Virus record (IMG/VR): IMGVR_UViG_3300015242_000047
Span: 1-20,490 of that record
Length of the DNA: 20,490 nucleotides
Direction: 5' to 3' (one strand)
Source: a virus
Shown: one piece after another, positions 2,379 to 14,753 of the stretch
Numbering within the stretch: position 1 is the first letter of the stretch
Layout of the letters: each line of letters begins with the position of its first letter
Program-made: the position numbers and the translations under genes
The notes under the pieces: generated by a model
The model's database searches: none
What the model was told of the DNA's origin: nothing
The model's input: only the letters and a program-made list of their open reading frames with translations

Positions 2379-3044
2379 GTGGACGTTCACACGATCGTGC
2401 TCACGAACGGCCGTGGTGCGTGCCTGGCCCGGATGATGGAGTCGTACGAGACCTATGTCGGGACCCCGTCCGGGACTATTGTGGACGACTCCGGTGATTC
2501 TAATTACCGAGAGTATCTAGAACGTGACTATCCGGGTTGGAGGATCGCCCCCGTAGCTGACGAGGCCTGCGGCTATTCCGCAGCCATGCAGAAAGTGTGG
2601 TCGATCGCGGCCGAGCACGAATACGTGTTCCTTATCGAAGATGATTTCGTGTTTCAGCGCGCGGTCTCGCCCGGTCTTCTGGCAGAAATCCTGGACAAGA
2701 ATCCACACCTGTTCCAATTTGTATTGGTTCGCCAACCCTGGTTCCCACACGAGGTCGCGGCCGGGTCTTTACTGGCCTCGATCGAGGGCATGGGCTTCCC
2801 GTTGAACCTCACTGGGACTAACGGGAACTCGTACCTCACCCATCTCCGTGGGTGGTCCACCAATCCAACCGTGTTCCGAGGCTCTGATTGGGTCCGTGAC
2901 CGCCCCTGGCCGGAGGGGGAGGGATCAGAGTACCGGTTCGGTCTCAATCTGGTACAGGATGAACCCGGGCGTCTATTTGCCTACTGGGGGGACGGGTCCG
3001 AATACGTGGAACACATCGGCCAACGTACAGGATTCGGACATTGA
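2379..3044 (+). CDS. GT-A fold glycosyltransferase, GT2-like (221 aa)
   Basis: The enzyme probably transfers a sugar from a nucleotide-sugar donor. It starts with a short strand and loop typical of GT2 proteins (HTIVLTNGRGACLARMMES), has VDDSGD at about 35-40, and carries the acidic metal-binding motif as FLIEDDF (E87, D88, D89) after a helix containing CGYSAAMQKVW. The end, YVEHIGQRTGFGH, resembles the C-terminus of other phage glycosyltransferases. GTG is the start; AAAGAGG lies 7 bases before it. The stop overlaps the TTG start of the next glycosyltransferase, so the two are coupled and likely act together. Being next to packaging genes, it may modify a virion protein or the host envelope; acceptor and donor cannot be read from the sequence. 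Confidence 0.8.
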   Translation: MDVHTIVLTNGRGACLARMMESYETYVGTPSGTIVDDSGDSNYREYLERDYPGWRIAPVADEACGYSAAMQKVWSIAAEHEYVFLIEDDFVFQRAVSPGLLAEILDKNPHLFQFVLVRQPWFPHEVAAGSLLASIEGMGFPLNLTGTNGNSYLTHLRGWSTNPTVFRGSDWVRDRPWPEGEGSEYRFGLNLVQDEPGRLFAYWGDGSEYVEHIGQRTGFGH

Positions 3045-3637
3045 CCGCCGCGATCTGCATCCCGTGGAGACCCTCGGCTAAGCGAGAGCCGCTTTTGAGC
3101 GCCCTGATGGACAAGCTCTTGGGCTACACCGTGTACTTCGCGGATTCCGACCCGGGCGAGTTCTCACGGGCTCAGGCAGCGAACAAAGCGGTGGCTCAGG
3201 CATTGGCCGAAGGCCATGACGTAGTAGTGGTCAACGATGCCGACACGATCTCGACTCCGTCTTCTCTTCGTAACGCGATTGACCGGACGCGACTCGATGG
3301 CAGGCCCCGGCTTCCGTATGACAAGTACGTGCTCATGGACCAACCCCAGACTGAATCGTACCTGAAGTCACCTGTTTGGTCAAATCTGCCCGATGAGCCC
3401 GAGTACGTGGGGTCGGTATCGGGTGTTCTCGTGTTTCGTTCGGATTCGTGGCTTGACATTGGTGGCTTCGATGAGCGATATCGCGGTTGGGGCCACGAAG
3501 ACAACGATATGGCAGCTCGGGCCGGGTTCGATCGGGTCCCCGGCCGCGTGTGGTCGCTGTATCACCAGCCAGATGATCGTTCAGTCTCGGATCCACGTAA
3601 TCTCAGGATTTATCGGGAAACCTACGGTCTGACGTGA
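3041..3637 (+). CDS. GT-A fold glycosyltransferase with GT7 (galactosyltransferase) C-terminal motif (198 aa)
   Basis: The metal-binding motif is NDAD (residues 65-68) after the strand HDVVVV. Further on comes GGFDERYRGWGHEDNDMAAR (141-160), the signature of the C-terminal domain of the galactosyltransferase GT7 family and related polypeptide GalNAc transferases (G-W-G-x-E-D-x-D). H175 in SLYHQPDDR is a plausible metal ligand. At about 200 residues it is a minimal catalytic domain without extras. The start is TTG overlapping the preceding stop as TTGA, an uncommon start codon that implies low-level, coupled translation. Its stop overlaps the next gene's GTG. It likely works with the preceding transferase, adding successive or alternative sugars. 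Confidence 0.82.
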   Translation: MTAAICIPWRPSAKREPLLSALMDKLLGYTVYFADSDPGEFSRAQAANKAVAQALAEGHDVVVVNDADTISTPSSLRNAIDRTRLDGRPRLPYDKYVLMDQPQTESYLKSPVWSNLPDEPEYVGSVSGVLVFRSDSWLDIGGFDERYRGWGHEDNDMAARAGFDRVPGRVWSLYHQPDDRSVSDPRNLRIYRETYGLT

Positions 3638-9697: not shown

Positions 9698-10783
9698 GTG
9701 ACAAACCTGGTGTTGCCTTCCGGATCTCAGATCGGTATCGGGCAAGAAGGCGCGTACCACTTCCTTTATAACGGTGCGCGCCTTCTGGACCCGGCTCCTA
9801 AACAAAAGCTGGTCAAAGTTCCGACCAACCGCAAGGTCAAGGTTCTAGCCGTGGTTCACGGCTGGATGCCGTATCTCGCCGCAGGCTCGGAACGAATGCT
9901 ACAACACATGCTCGCGGCTCTGCCCAAGATCGAGTACGAGATCGAAATCCTATCCCGTGGCTCTGCGGACACCCGATACGAGGCTACCCCATACGAGTAC
10001 GAGGGCATGCTCGTGACCACGGGGTTCACCCCCCAGTTTGAACCCGACTTGATTATTACCCATCACGGGCCGTCAGCACGAGTTGTGTCCTTGCTCCGTG
10101 AAGATTACCCGGGCGTGCCCGTGGTCGCGGTATTCCACAATGAGCGGCTTGATATCCCGGACATTCTCGCGCTGAACGCTGACCTGAACGTGTTCAACAC
10201 GAAGTGGGTTAAGAAGGCTATCGGCCGGAATGGGCTTGTGGTCCACCCCCCGCTTGAGTATGAGCGCCATCACGTGGACGAGACCGGTGACGTAGTCACC
10301 CTGATCAATCTCCAGGAAAACAAGGGTGTGGCCACGTTCCATCGCTTGGCTGAGAGAATGCCTGAGGTCAACTTCTTGGGTGTGATCGGGTCTCACGGTG
10401 AGCAAGAACCGAAACCCGGTCCAAACCTCACCGTGAACCCTGGTACCCAAGATATGCGTGAGGTTTGGTCCCAGACCAAGGTGCTTCTGGCCCCGTCCGA
10501 GTACGAGTCTTTTGGCATGGTCGCGGCCGAGGCATGCGCATCGGGTATCCCCGTGATCGCACACCCAACACCTGGTTTGGTCGAATGCCTCGGGTTTGCC
10601 GGGATCTTCGTTGACCGCGAGGACACAGATACATACGAACGCACGCTCAGGCTCCTCCTTACGGACCGGCAGACCTACGAAGAGCATTCGGCCATGGCTA
10701 CAGAGCGAGGCCACCAGATCGTCGCTCAGACCCAGACCGAGCTTGCCCGGTTCGTGAGAGAAGTGCGGAAGTTGGTGAGGTAA
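9698..10783 (+). CDS. GT-B fold glycosyltransferase, GT4 family, with N-terminal extension (361 aa)
   Basis: The C-terminal half shows the GT4 signature: PSEYESFGMVAAEACASGIP (266-285), with the E-x7-E pair E270/E278, followed by HPTPGLVECLG. The N-terminal Rossmann-like half starts at about residue 47 (VKVLAVVHGW) and contains AAGSERMLQHML, matching the donor/acceptor loop of GT4 enzymes. The first 46 residues (LPSGSQIGIGQEGAYHFLYN) are not part of the GT4 fold and may anchor the enzyme to its target. GTG is the start with GGAAGG 9 bases upstream. It sits directly after the major capsid gene and its stop overlaps the next start (TAATG), which suggests that it glycosylates the capsid or the adjacent fibre proteins. 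That target is inferred. Confidence 0.87.
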   Translation: MTNLVLPSGSQIGIGQEGAYHFLYNGARLLDPAPKQKLVKVPTNRKVKVLAVVHGWMPYLAAGSERMLQHMLAALPKIEYEIEILSRGSADTRYEATPYEYEGMLVTTGFTPQFEPDLIITHHGPSARVVSLLREDYPGVPVVAVFHNERLDIPDILALNADLNVFNTKWVKKAIGRNGLVVHPPLEYERHHVDETGDVVTLINLQENKGVATFHRLAERMPEVNFLGVIGSHGEQEPKPGPNLTVNPGTQDMREVWSQTKVLLAPSEYESFGMVAAEACASGIPVIAHPTPGLVECLGFAGIFVDREDTDTYERTLRLLLTDRQTYEEHSAMATERGHQIVAQTQTELARFVREVRKLVR

Positions 10784-11271
10784 TGGTCGAGGTTTACGCC
10801 AACAGGTGGGGGCCGCAAGGGATTAACTACGCGGACGGACGCTCGGTCGGTGTCGCGTCCGTTCTCGTTCGCCGATCCCCGGATAACACGCTCGCTGCTT
10901 TGTACACGGACCGGATCCGATCTGCCCAGATCTCCAACCCGATGCTCACGGACGCAACTGGCAACCTAACCTTTTTCGCGGACCCGGGCGAGTACACCTG
11001 CACGGTACACGGTTTTACGTTCATCGTCTCTATCCCAGATAACCCGGACGAGCCCGAATCGGGTGGCGGGGGCGGCCCTACTCAGTACGTGTACACGCAA
11101 TCGGTCCCCCTTGCTACGTGGATTATCAACCACGACCTGGGCAGGAAGACCCACTGCACTATTTTTGATCCGTTCGGGGTCGAAGTGGAAACCGATGTTC
11201 AAGCAGGCTCACTGTTCCAGACGACGGTGATCTTCCCCAGCCCTGCCACGGGCTCCGCAGTTATTTCGTGA
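10783..11271 (+). CDS. Putative head decoration / fibre protein (162 aa)
   Basis: There appear to be two beta-rich domains. The N-terminal one (about 1-90) contains NPMLTDATGNLTFFADPGEY, a pattern common in phage fibre and decoration proteins. A Gly-rich linker (ESGGGGGP) leads to a C-terminal domain with YVYTQSVPLATWIINHDLG (100-118) and VIFPSPATGSAVIS, the small Ig-like virion domain seen at the end of many tail and fibre proteins. ATG overlaps the glycosyltransferase stop (TAATG). It is placed between capsid and connector genes, so a head-surface role fits better than a tail tip role, although a receptor-binding role is possible. Confidence 0.68.
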   Translation: MVEVYANRWGPQGINYADGRSVGVASVLVRRSPDNTLAALYTDRIRSAQISNPMLTDATGNLTFFADPGEYTCTVHGFTFIVSIPDNPDEPESGGGGGPTQYVYTQSVPLATWIINHDLGRKTHCTIFDPFGVEVETDVQAGSLFQTTVIFPSPATGSAVIS

Positions 11272-11281
11272 AGGGCACGTT

Positions 11282-12193
11282 ATGGCCAGGAAATTCCTCA
11301 CAGGTGTGGACCTCAATAACCAGAGGGCCCAGGCCGTAGCAGACCCCACCTCCGCTACCGACGCTGCTAACAAGCAGTACGTGGACGCTCTCGTTGCTGG
11401 TCTTCGCTGGAAGACCGCAGTGCGAGCAGCGTCCACTACGAACGGGACTCTAGCGTCCGCGTTCGTAAACGGTTCGACTCTTGACGGAGTTGTTCTGGCG
11501 ACAGGCGATCGAATCCTGCTCAAAGACCAGACCGCTCAGACTGAGAACGGTGTTTATACCGTCAACGCGTCTGGAGCTCCGACACGGGCCCTGGACTCCG
11601 ATTCACCCGCTGAGCTCGACAACGCCACGGTATTCGTGGTCTCGGGCACGGTAAACAACGATCGCGCGTATACCCAGACCACTCCGAGTCCGACCATCGG
11701 TTCGAGCAACATCGTCTGGTCGCAGTTCGGTGGCGGCACAGCTTATACCGCAGACAACAACGGTGTCGAGCTGGTCGGAACGGTCTTCTCCTTGAAGATC
11801 GACGGCACGAGCCTTTCCGAGACCTCAAGCGGTGTCCGAATCGCTTCGGCAGCGGCCGGGGCAGGCCTAATCGAATCCTCGGGTATCCTCGCCGTAGGTG
11901 CGGGGACCGGGATCACGGTCAACGCGAACGATATCGCGGTTGATCCTACAGTGGTTACGACTACCCCGAGCACCGTGGTTCGTAAGTACTCGGTCCTGAT
12001 CGGCAACGGGTCGTTGACTTCGATCCCGGTAACGCATTCACTCGGAACCGCAGACGTTACGTACTCTATCCGCGACGCGGGATCGAACGAGTTCGTGGAG
12101 TGTGACGTGGTGTCAACCTCGACTACGGTTCTCACGCTTACCTTCGCAACCGCGCCCACCTCTAACCAGTACAAGGTCACGGTGCATGGCTGA
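11282..12193 (+). CDS. Fibre-type protein (303 aa), possibly head fibre or receptor-binding
   Basis: The N-terminus has the attachment motif common in phage fibres, DPTSATDAANKQYVDALVAG (about 21-40), followed by the fibre domain with TGDRILLKDQTAQTENGVYT (74-93) and DNATVFVVSGTVNNDRAYTQ (113-132). A repetitive shaft-like region (about 150-220: GVELVGTVFSLKID, then GILAVGAGTGITVNANDIAV) leads to a C-terminal Ig-like domain (IPVTHSLGTADVTYSI) that resembles the end of the preceding protein. GAAGGG precedes the ATG, and the stop overlaps the next start (TGATG). It probably forms a trimeric fibre; whether this attaches to head or tail is not decidable from sequence. Confidence 0.75.
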   Translation: MARKFLTGVDLNNQRAQAVADPTSATDAANKQYVDALVAGLRWKTAVRAASTTNGTLASAFVNGSTLDGVVLATGDRILLKDQTAQTENGVYTVNASGAPTRALDSDSPAELDNATVFVVSGTVNNDRAYTQTTPSPTIGSSNIVWSQFGGGTAYTADNNGVELVGTVFSLKIDGTSLSETSSGVRIASAAAGAGLIESSGILAVGAGTGITVNANDIAVDPTVVTTTPSTVVRKYSVLIGNGSLTSIPVTHSLGTADVTYSIRDAGSNEFVECDVVSTSTTVLTLTFATAPTSNQYKVTVHG

Positions 12194-14277
12194 TGGGGCT
12201 CCAGTACAAGGGGGTTGTTTCTAACCCAGACGGTATTGCTACCAAGCTTTACGTTGACAAGTATGCCCCTGTGTGCTCCCGAACAAGTACCAACACGGGA
12301 AACGATGGATCGTCCAGCACGGGCACGGTAGCAACCACCTTCGCGCGCACGGGGCGCACGTTGCATCGTGTGCTCACAGGGGCTAACGCGCTACGGTTCG
12401 AGTACCTCAATTGGTATACCCAGCCAAACGGGTCCCCGGGTGAGGTAAACAACCCGAACGCGGTTACTTACCGCGCTTCGATCGAATACCCCGCAGGCAG
12501 GTGGCGGCAGATTTCGGGCTCTACCACTTGGTCCTCCGCAACCGCTTACGCCGCGCTCGAACAGGTGGTGTATTCGGGAAACTCGTACGTGGCCTTGAAG
12601 GCAACCACGATCGCGACTGTCCCAACGTCAGCTCTCGGTACGGAATGGCAACTTGTTACGCGTTACACGGTGTCTTTCGAGGGGCAAGACGTGGATCGAC
12701 GCGTGACGGTCGTTGCCGGAGGCAGCGCTACATCACTACCCGTGCTGCTGAATGTCAAAGAGGGCAACTGGTTAGCGGTCACGACTACGGTGGTCACGAA
12801 CAACGCGGCGAACAGTTTTTCGGGGGATATCCATGGCTCGCTGGCGTATGACTTTGCTCAGGACTACCCGAGCTCTGCTCCGACAGTAACCACGGTCGAT
12901 CTGGTCGATAAGAATGTGACCACTGAGACTAACGCTGCGGCAAGTACTCGTATCCCGTACCCCTCGGTTATCTGGGGGAACACCCGAGACTACACCTACA
13001 TAGGCCTGGCAGGTGACTCACTTGGTTACGGGTACGGGGACACGTTTGAGGACTCTGAGCTCAAAGGTTTCTTCGTCCGCGCGATGGATGCAGAGAACCG
13101 GCTTTACCGAAAGGTAGCCATCGGTGCGGACCAGATGCAATTTTGGGCTGGTGGGAATGCGGAGAAGCGCATTCAGCTGCTCGAAAAGGCCGATGCGATC
13201 CTGTGCCATCTCGGCGCGAACGACATCACGGGTGGCCGGACGTTGGCCCAGTTGCAGGCCAACGCGATTGAAGTGTGGGGCTTGCTGGGCAGGTCTGGTT
13301 CGCGAGTATGGCAGACTACGCAACGCCCGAAGTCCGCGAGTACGGACGCATGGGCAACGAAGGCAAACCAGACGCCCACCTCACCAGCTTACGCAGTCGG
13401 TGGAGTGCGCGATACGTGGAACGCATGGCTACGCGGCGGCGCCTCGACAGTAATTCAGGGCAAGACCTTGACTGCTGGGCAATCTGGCCACCCGCTTACC
13501 GGCGTGGCTGATATTTCATACGCACTGGAAGACCAAGCCGACCAATTCTATTACCGGTCCCCGGGGTACACTACTGACGGCACACACCCCACGTTATTGG
13601 GACACACCGATTTTGGCACGGCCTTACGAGCTTATGTCACTCGAATGTTACGACCAGTCCCGACTACGGCGTTGGAAACAACGTCATCCGATCGTAAGTG
13701 GGGGTTGGGCGCGGGCGGGCAATACGCGTACATGTTCCGTAACAACGAGATCATGAGCCCAGCCCCAGCGTGGGCATGCACGAAAACCCAAACCCTGGAT
13801 GCAACAAAAAAAGGGTTGTTTGTGATGATGGGGTATAGTGAAGAATCGGTTGTATTGACCGGCATTCAAACGTTGTACTCTAACATTCCCTCAGCTGCTA
13901 CGAAGATCGCGGCGTATGCCGGTAGCGGCTTCAACATGAACAAGATCGATTCCGATCGAACGATCGCCGCGCAGAACGGGTATCAACGACTGGCGTTCTC
14001 TATACCCCAGCGGGTAAGGGGTTTCATTGGTGTCTACTTCTTTGTGGACACGGCAACGGTCACCCCACCCACCCTACTGGCTACTCCAGTTTCGGACTCA
14101 TTCACGCTAACCACACCATCATACGCAAACTTCACGGCGTTGACCCCACAAAGCTTGGCTCGGGTGGTATCTATCCCGAACACCCCGCTTACGTCGTTGC
14201 CCGCGTCAGTTGATATTACCCTAGGTGGCGGTGTCTGGATCTTGGCTACTCAAATCCCGTTCGTTACGTTCTACTAA
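12193..14277 (+). CDS. Virion SGNH/GDSL esterase with nested carbohydrate-binding-like module (694 aa)
   Basis: The SGNH hydrolase blocks are all visible: IGLAGDSLGYGYGD (block I, nucleophile S276), CHLGANDI (block III, N343) and DGTHPT (block V, D462 and H465). Such enzymes remove acyl groups from polysaccharides. Upstream, about residues 52-220 form a beta-sandwich-like domain (RFEYLNWYTQPNGSPGE; NWLAVTTTVVTN) into which a short module at 113-153 is inserted (WSSATAYAALEQVVYSGNSY ... W152), matching CBM5/12-like sugar-binding modules of phage proteins. The N-terminus (IATKLYVDKY) has a KxYVD attachment motif like the previous fibre protein. About 200 residues at the end form an unknown beta-rich domain. 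The gene is coupled to the previous one (TGATG). Function: likely binds and deacylates host surface glycan during adsorption. Confidence 0.85.
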   Translation: MGLQYKGVVSNPDGIATKLYVDKYAPVCSRTSTNTGNDGSSSTGTVATTFARTGRTLHRVLTGANALRFEYLNWYTQPNGSPGEVNNPNAVTYRASIEYPAGRWRQISGSTTWSSATAYAALEQVVYSGNSYVALKATTIATVPTSALGTEWQLVTRYTVSFEGQDVDRRVTVVAGGSATSLPVLLNVKEGNWLAVTTTVVTNNAANSFSGDIHGSLAYDFAQDYPSSAPTVTTVDLVDKNVTTETNAAASTRIPYPSVIWGNTRDYTYIGLAGDSLGYGYGDTFEDSELKGFFVRAMDAENRLYRKVAIGADQMQFWAGGNAEKRIQLLEKADAILCHLGANDITGGRTLAQLQANAIEVWGLLGRSGSRVWQTTQRPKSASTDAWATKANQTPTSPAYAVGGVRDTWNAWLRGGASTVIQGKTLTAGQSGHPLTGVADISYALEDQADQFYYRSPGYTTDGTHPTLLGHTDFGTALRAYVTRMLRPVPTTALETTSSDRKWGLGAGGQYAYMFRNNEIMSPAPAWACTKTQTLDATKKGLFVMMGYSEESVVLTGIQTLYSNIPSAATKIAAYAGSGFNMNKIDSDRTIAAQNGYQRLAFSIPQRVRGFIGVYFFVDTATVTPPTLLATPVSDSFTLTTPSYANFTALTPQSLARVVSIPNTPLTSLPASVDITLGGGVWILATQIPFVTFY

Positions 14278-14291
14278 GGGAAGTGATCTAG

Positions 14292-14753
14292 ATGGTGTTC
14301 ATACCAAATCCACCAGGTGCCACGATCGCGACCCCCGCTGACGTAGCGGCCCGGGTTGGTCGGCCCCTCACCGCGTTTGAGACGACCCGGGTACAGGCCT
14401 TCCTAGACGATGTCGAGGTCGAGATCCAGCGCCTGGCTGCTGACCGGCTCACGGACCCTCAGTGGGTTGCGGCCGTGAAGTCGGTCGAGTGCTCGGTAGT
14501 GATCCGGGCCGCACGCTTGCCCGACTCTCTCTCGACTGTGGTTCCGGCCACTGAGGGAGCCGGGTTCGCGTCCGCACCCGCGGTTCAGGGCGCGGTTTAC
14601 CTCAGGCGTGAAGAGCGCCGACGCCTGGGCTTGCCCCTCACAGGCGCGGTTTCGATGGCACCTAAGCCCACGGTCTATGTCGATCCCAACGGTGGGGGCT
14701 GGTACCCGTCCGACTCTAATGGGCTGTACGACGACTGTGACAGGAGCTGGTAA
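14292..14753 (+). CDS. Head-to-tail adaptor protein (153 aa)
   Basis: The protein starts with TPADVAARVGRPLTAFETTR (14-33) followed by a helix (VQAFLDDVEVEIQRLAADRL), the helical pattern of HK97 gp6 / SPP1 gp15-like adaptors that bind below the portal. The C-terminal part has LRREERRRLGLPLTGAVS and a Gly/Tyr-rich end. It is the first connector gene after the fibre block. AAGGGAAG precedes the ATG. The stop overlaps the next start (TAATG), as expected in a connector operon. Confidence 0.82.
   Translation: MVFIPNPPGATIATPADVAARVGRPLTAFETTRVQAFLDDVEVEIQRLAADRLTDPQWVAAVKSVECSVVIRAARLPDSLSTVVPATEGAGFASAPAVQGAVYLRREERRRLGLPLTGAVSMAPKPTVYVDPNGGGWYPSDSNGLYDDCDRSW

Follow-up and report, generated by a model that had tools for sequence, protein, structure and literature searches.

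The gene at positions 12193-14277 of the window encodes an SGNH esterase, the predicted structure of which has the two-domain fold of carbohydrate esterases. We consider it probable that this protein is a virion-borne O-acyl (most likely O-acetyl) glycan esterase, the enzyme encoded at the end of a portable cassette of three surface-appendage genes. The window, i.e., the whole stretch of DNA analysed here, is the complete IMG/VR record, a linear fragment of 20,490 bases that stops shortly after the tape measure gene (TMP), with the tail-tip genes lying beyond its end. By Pfam and PHROG assignment, its structural genes run in the order MCP, GT4, small, deco, SGNH, Ad1, neck, tail tube and TMP. 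This agrees with the initial annotation, which had placed the esterase gene between the GT4/capsid genes and the head-tail adaptor and had considered the position unusual. The features relevant to this study are as follows.

9698-10783, + strand: GT4 glycosyltransferase, left border of the cassette (PF00534, E 4e-14; in the sister phage L094 its stop codon directly precedes Ad1)
10783-11271, + strand: cassette gene small, 162 aa (phrog_30556, E 1e-9; homologues in deco loci)
11282-12193, + strand: cassette gene deco, 303 aa (phrog_2647, PDB profile matches, AF2)
12193-14277, + strand: SGNH esterase gene, 694 aa (ORF, motif, PHROG/Pfam, conservation, AF2 and fold evidence)
12223-12264, + strand: putative N-terminal virion-adaptor motif NPDGIATKLYVDKY, residues ~11-24 (resembles the DPTSATDAANKQYVD motif of deco and phage fibres)
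12319-12972, + strand: beta-sandwich ("CBM-like") domain, residues ~43-104 and 155-260, integral to the enzyme fold (AF2; alignment with the CBM-like domain of PbeAcXE and with polyvinyl alcohol esterase)
12508-12660, + strand: nested CBM5/12-like module, residues ~106-156, W113 to W152 (insert alignment; profile match to 1ed7, E 1.3e-5)
12988-13653, + strand: SGNH catalytic domain, residues 266-487, with S276, N343, D462 and H465 (AF2 pLDDT mostly 92-98; conserved columns; PDB fold matches)
13654-14274, + strand: C-terminal region, residues ~488-694, with a beta domain at 541-620 (AF2 pLDDT ~60; counterparts in L132/L234, L232 and L233)
14292-14753, + strand: head-tail adaptor Ad1, right border of the cassette (phrog_137, E 1e-20)

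The limits of the cassette are drawn by comparison with L094, the nearest relative, whose major capsid protein is 67% identical. Left-hand similarity between the two phages ends at the GT4 stop codon, where L094 continues directly with Ad1, and searches of the L094 contig for deco or Lipase_GDSL_2 gave no match. Since L094 is syntenic through TMP yet has no cassette, small-deco-SGNH (~3.5 kb) is an accessory unit that was either gained here or lost in L094. The small protein consists of an N-terminal beta domain and a C-terminal beta domain like that of deco. A homologue was detected in 51 of the 80 IMG/VR deco loci and also in Curtobacterium phage Sunfish (gp37), while the small protein as a single-protein query against viral contigs returned no match. 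The pair of small and deco is widespread in diverse metagenomic phages (L014-L093). Deco itself has an N-terminal DPTSATDAANKQYVD motif, a decoration domain at ~40-150 and a C-terminal beta domain at 231-303; AF2 models the two beta domains with pLDDT above 90. As a separate observation, the GT4 gene follows immediately on the major capsid gene, an arrangement conserved in L094; together with a second glycosyltransferase at 3041-3637 (Glyco_transf_7C), it suggests that the virions are glycosylated. L104, a sister-phage locus, encodes at 1824-2735 an Rv2525c-like, glycoside-hydrolase-like protein that may be the endolysin; a collagen-like gene precedes it.

The esterase ORF, which runs in the same direction as the structural genes, has the coordinates first assigned to it, and the motifs lie exactly where they had been read, i.e., GDS at 274-276, GAND at 341-344, DGTH at 462-465, and the tryptophans at W113 and W152. 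PHROG 8480, "lysophospholipase L1-like esterase," matches residues 37-472 (E 1.6e-31), and PF13472 (Lipase_GDSL_2) matches residues 274-419 with an E-value of 4e-7, slightly below the curated cut-off. A degenerate DNA motif scan of viral contigs yielded at least 120 loci, nearly all of which encode the family. Among the matches listed, 67 aligned family sequences share invariant S276, N343 and G463, with conservation of 90% or more at G274, D275, G341, D344, D462 and H465. The protein thus carries the SGNH/GDSL hydrolase blocks I (S276), II (the nearly invariant G311), III (N343) and V (D462/H465), and its model superimposes on SGNH enzymes with Z-scores of 16.9-29. Chance origin of the motifs was rejected, as motifs, conservation and fold are concordant. 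Four family members (L126, L206, L134, and L119) have an altered GDS or GxND and are perhaps binding-only versions of the esterase.

Close relatives of the esterase are all metagenomic. No match was obtained with the SGNH protein as a single-protein query against viral contigs, with the window against phage records at the DNA level, or with residues 1-270 and ~485-694 against phage records by tblastn. A protein-alignment scan for prophages in 84,980 species genomes found no esterase relative; a motif scan for prophages gave 16 stretches, most with an SGNH core, and deco was detected in none of them.

A structure search of the esterase domain, proposed in the initial annotation, identified the two-domain SGNH carbohydrate-esterase fold. 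The best match to the AF2 model was the acetyl xylan esterase PbeAcXE (7toh; Z 29.0, rmsd 3.0 over 348 residues, model range 21-488), followed by the two-domain polyvinyl alcohol esterase (9kr0, Z 27.9) and CspAcXE (7toj, Z 27.4). Single-domain SGNH enzymes scored well under these, with Z of 20.6 and lower. The same proteins were recovered independently by sequence profile (9kr0, E 1e-27; 7tog, E 3e-20; 7toj, E 5e-12). In PbeAcXE, a sugar ligand is bound between the CBM-like and SGNH domains (PMC9105624). The two-domain matches, taken with the position of this ligand at the domain interface, indicate that the beta-sandwich is part of the enzyme and not a mere fibre stalk. Its pLDDT is mostly 80-95 at residues 50-104 and 160-200, and 55-90 beyond. 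As to substrate, a glycan target as first suggested is probable. The mycolate layer that had also been put forward was set aside, since nothing in the searches pointed there and the nearest folds are polysaccharide and polyester esterases acting on O-acetylated xylan or polyvinyl alcohol ester.

Another feature of the esterase is a stretch of ~50 residues that lies between IEYPAGRWRQ and RYTVSFEGQ and interrupts a strand loop of the beta-sandwich. Relatives without it (10 isolate relatives and nearly all of the aligned metagenomic set) read IEYPAG, two variable residues, and then VTFxG. Among the matches listed there are five carriers, namely the phage protein, L132/L234, L150, L114/L232, and L233; the 67-sequence alignment counts the insert in four, as the N-terminal part of L233 falls outside locus L226. 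Pfam CBM_5_12 matches at the homologous place in all five (E 3e-5 to 0.056), the single-protein matches being below the curated cut-off and that of the phage protein alone sub-threshold at 0.056. A profile built from the five inserts recovers the CBM12 of chitinase A1 (1ed7) at E 1.3e-5 along with other chitin-active enzymes bearing CBM5/12, and the inserts display the conserved W..nTaY..gdqVvY.G..Y pattern of family 5/12. The sequence evidence therefore supports the earlier proposal of a nested sugar-binding module insofar as residues ~106-156 are an insertion assignable to CBM family 5/12. The structure prediction does not add to this, given that AF2 left the insert unfolded (pLDDT ~40 at residues 105-153, where the alignment barely covers it).

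The N-terminus of the esterase offers a possible link to deco. The ATKxY(V/T)D motif located there resembles ATDAANKQYVD of deco. Of 124 related SGNH ORFs among the matches listed, only 4 carry it, and three of these have deco upstream. The three closest homologues of the esterase, L150 (which also has small, in the same order), L132, and L114/L232, all keep the motif and all have deco directly upstream, but they are mutually related, so that the correlation does not represent three fully independent events. Consistent with such a link, L233 has neither motif nor deco; L140 has the motif and no detected deco.

Deco is homologous to decoration proteins. It matches phrog_2647, "head decoration" (E 2.6e-50), and the best full-length match of its profile is PDB 9nx3, called "Capsid decoration protein" by its depositors only (E 2e-43). 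Because only weak matches to common beta-domains (Z about 6) were obtained when the deco model was compared with known structures, the relation to 9nx3 is one of sequence. In Bxz1-type mycobacteriophages, the C-terminal portion of gp232 is identical in sequence to 9nx3; in Mycobacterium phage ET08 (L236, 3184-6639), the gene for the 1151-aa gp232 has four glycosyltransferase genes as well as minor tail genes for neighbours.

Where on the virion the esterase would act is the point on which readings diverge. The initial annotation reasoned from gene order that it is head-borne or else an unusually placed tail enzyme. The position between MCP and Ad1 stands, but gene order is a weak argument because the cassette is removable, as L094 illustrates, and its relatives sit at varied places, i.e., after the portal gene, by the head-tail adaptor, before the terminase gene, or after baseplate and fibre genes. 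Keeping this in mind, a head-borne esterase is plausible. Specifically, we regard it as quite possible, if short of probable, that the protein is a decoration enzyme of the capsid or neck, kept in place by deco and working while the head lies against glycan. In addition to the gene's position, the decoration-protein matches of deco speak for this reading, as do the 36 of 80 loci in which deco is directly upstream of portal and the order portal-small-deco-SGNH in L232. On the other hand, the deco profile also matches orf22 (9efk, E 4e-26), a chain of the portal-tail complex of podophage LME-1, and the deco domain is found inserted in or fused to tailspikes (L014 and L215). The mosaic gene order, with the L039 cassette located after baseplate and fibre genes, is likewise at odds with a strictly head-borne enzyme. 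Of the two tailspikes, that of L014 (2588-5083) is a beta-helix protein holding two inserted "head decoration" domains, and that of L215 (2269-5181) combines in one protein a deco domain, the beta-domain, an SGNH domain in which GDS has become GDR (likely inactive), and a pectate-lyase-like region.

Alternatively, the protein could be an ordinary tail fibre or tailspike enzyme whose gene merely lies upstream of the tape measure, a reading that we hold to be possible, though somewhat doubtful. An equivalent gene among the ordinary tail fibres of related phages had been named at the outset as an argument against a head location, and such cases were found in part: the homologue L233, which bears the CBM but lacks the partner genes, is preceded by fibre genes and by a gene for a baseplate wedge protein (phrog_6), and the L039 cassette comes after a Baseplate_J gene. 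Moreover, the ATKxYVD motif is of fibre type, deco has tail-fibre relatives, and many isolate relatives of the esterase follow TMP and are annotated as minor tail proteins. Unlike in L233 and L039, the gene studied here lies in the GT4-Ad1 interval and not with tail-tip genes; relatives in L232, Sunfish, DoobyDoo, Bibwit, Rabbitrun, and RHph_X2_26 are also upstream of TMP or beside head genes, and a capsid decoration protein as the best full-length match of deco is not what a tail fibre partner would predict. This match and the portal gene that follows deco in 36 of 80 loci lead us to lean slightly toward attachment at the head or neck rather than the tail.

It is improbable that the enzyme works outside the virion, either inside infected cells or once they have lysed, where it might for instance degrade host surface glycan for release. 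An accessory cassette can be a moron, and some SGNH relatives are near lysis genes (BillyTP and AbbyDaisy), but the fibre-type adaptor motif, the structural partner genes and the shared direction with the structural genes argue for a virion component. A virion-borne glycan esterase is the likely interpretation.

Deco is found with more than one kind of payload. In Sunfish and L039 it is followed by an SGNH enzyme of another subfamily, and in L014 by a beta-helix tailspike; downstream of that tailspike lie portal and protease genes and a gene that, on inspection, looks like terminase. These pairings with SGNH enzymes of several subfamilies and with a tailspike suggest that the same partner serves different surface-acting payloads. 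A bolder version, which we consider rather unlikely, is that deco is a socket on the capsid or neck into which phages plug SGNH esterases of several subfamilies or a beta-helix tailspike, so that the processing of host or matrix polysaccharide would fall to the head and not to the tail tip.

We infer esterase activity, substrate, incorporation into the virion and contact with deco, and envisage the following scheme for the virion-borne esterase. A cassette of small, decoration/fibre and payload genes would have been gained between GT4 and Ad1, or lost in the sister phage. The beta-sandwich and SGNH domains would form one enzyme of the acetyl-xylan-esterase/polyvinyl-alcohol-esterase fold, with substrate expected at the domain interface, and the CBM5/12-type module looped out of the beta-sandwich could add grip on polysaccharide. 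The N-terminal ATKxYVD motif would join the esterase to the virion, most likely via deco, and the C-terminal region may possibly form a tip or an oligomerisation domain. As the phage approaches or adsorbs, the enzyme would then strip acyl groups from polysaccharide of the host surface or of a matrix.

Esterases and depolymerases of phages are commonly treated as tail-tip components. If the cassette is head- or neck-mounted, phages would carry interchangeable head enzymes for polysaccharide handling. Even if it is tail-mounted, it constitutes a clear exchange unit, present in one of two sister phages and cleanly absent from the other, and its carbohydrate esterase has a sugar-binding module that loops out of the enzyme's own binding domain. 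The question of location can be tested directly in cultured relatives, Sunfish among them. Exchangeable esterases in actinophage structural regions are already in print: the paper on DoobyDoo describes a highly variable spot among the structure genes where an esterase, a lipase or a hydrolase is found (PMC11955846), and there is a catalogue of the SGNH enzymes with which Curtobacterium prophages degrade glycans (PMC9862828). The nested CBM and the small-deco-payload cassette appear to be new, as a limited literature search found no description of either.

Compared with known enzymes, the phage protein shares with the FjoAcXE-type acetyl xylan esterases (PbeAcXE, 7toh, and CspAcXE, 7toj; PMC9105624) the N-terminal CBM-like beta-domain packed on the SGNH domain, the Ser-Asp-His triad and the oxyanion Asn. 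That family, which deacetylates 2-O-MeGlcA-3-O-acetyl xylan, has the signature GNSI around the catalytic Ser, whereas the phage protein has GDSL at 274-277; we therefore liken it to the FjoAcXE type in architecture and probable chemistry and do not count it as a member. Structural-alignment identity is 16-18%, and the nested CBM5/12 module, the fibre-type N-terminus and the added C-terminal region are peculiar to the phage protein. The SGNH/GDSL polyvinyl alcohol esterase (9kr0 and 9kqz), the closest PDB relative of the family profile, has the two-domain fold in common, but no such insert or virion adaptor is reported for it and its biological setting is unrelated. Known members of CBM family 5/12 have a small independent beta fold and bind chitin or cellulose-like glycan.

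Among phages, the phrog_8480 esterases of Gordonia phages Bibwit (gp25), Rabbitrun (gp24), and DoobyDoo (gp4) and Arthrobacter phages TripleJ (gp31) and BillyTP (gp31) share the beta-domain and SGNH core at 24-29% identity, and several are upstream of TMP in structural regions; they differ in having no nested CBM, no ATKxYVD adaptor and no detected deco neighbour. The C-terminal part of Bxz1-cluster gp232 (9nx3) and LME-1 orf22 (9efk) are homologues of the cassette partner deco, and neither protein includes an esterase. Sunfish has an esterase of another SGNH subfamily, one that is not matched by the family profile, is shorter and has no CBM insert, yet its gp37-39 present the same arrangement of small, deco and SGNH esterase beside the head-tail adaptor and upstream of TMP.
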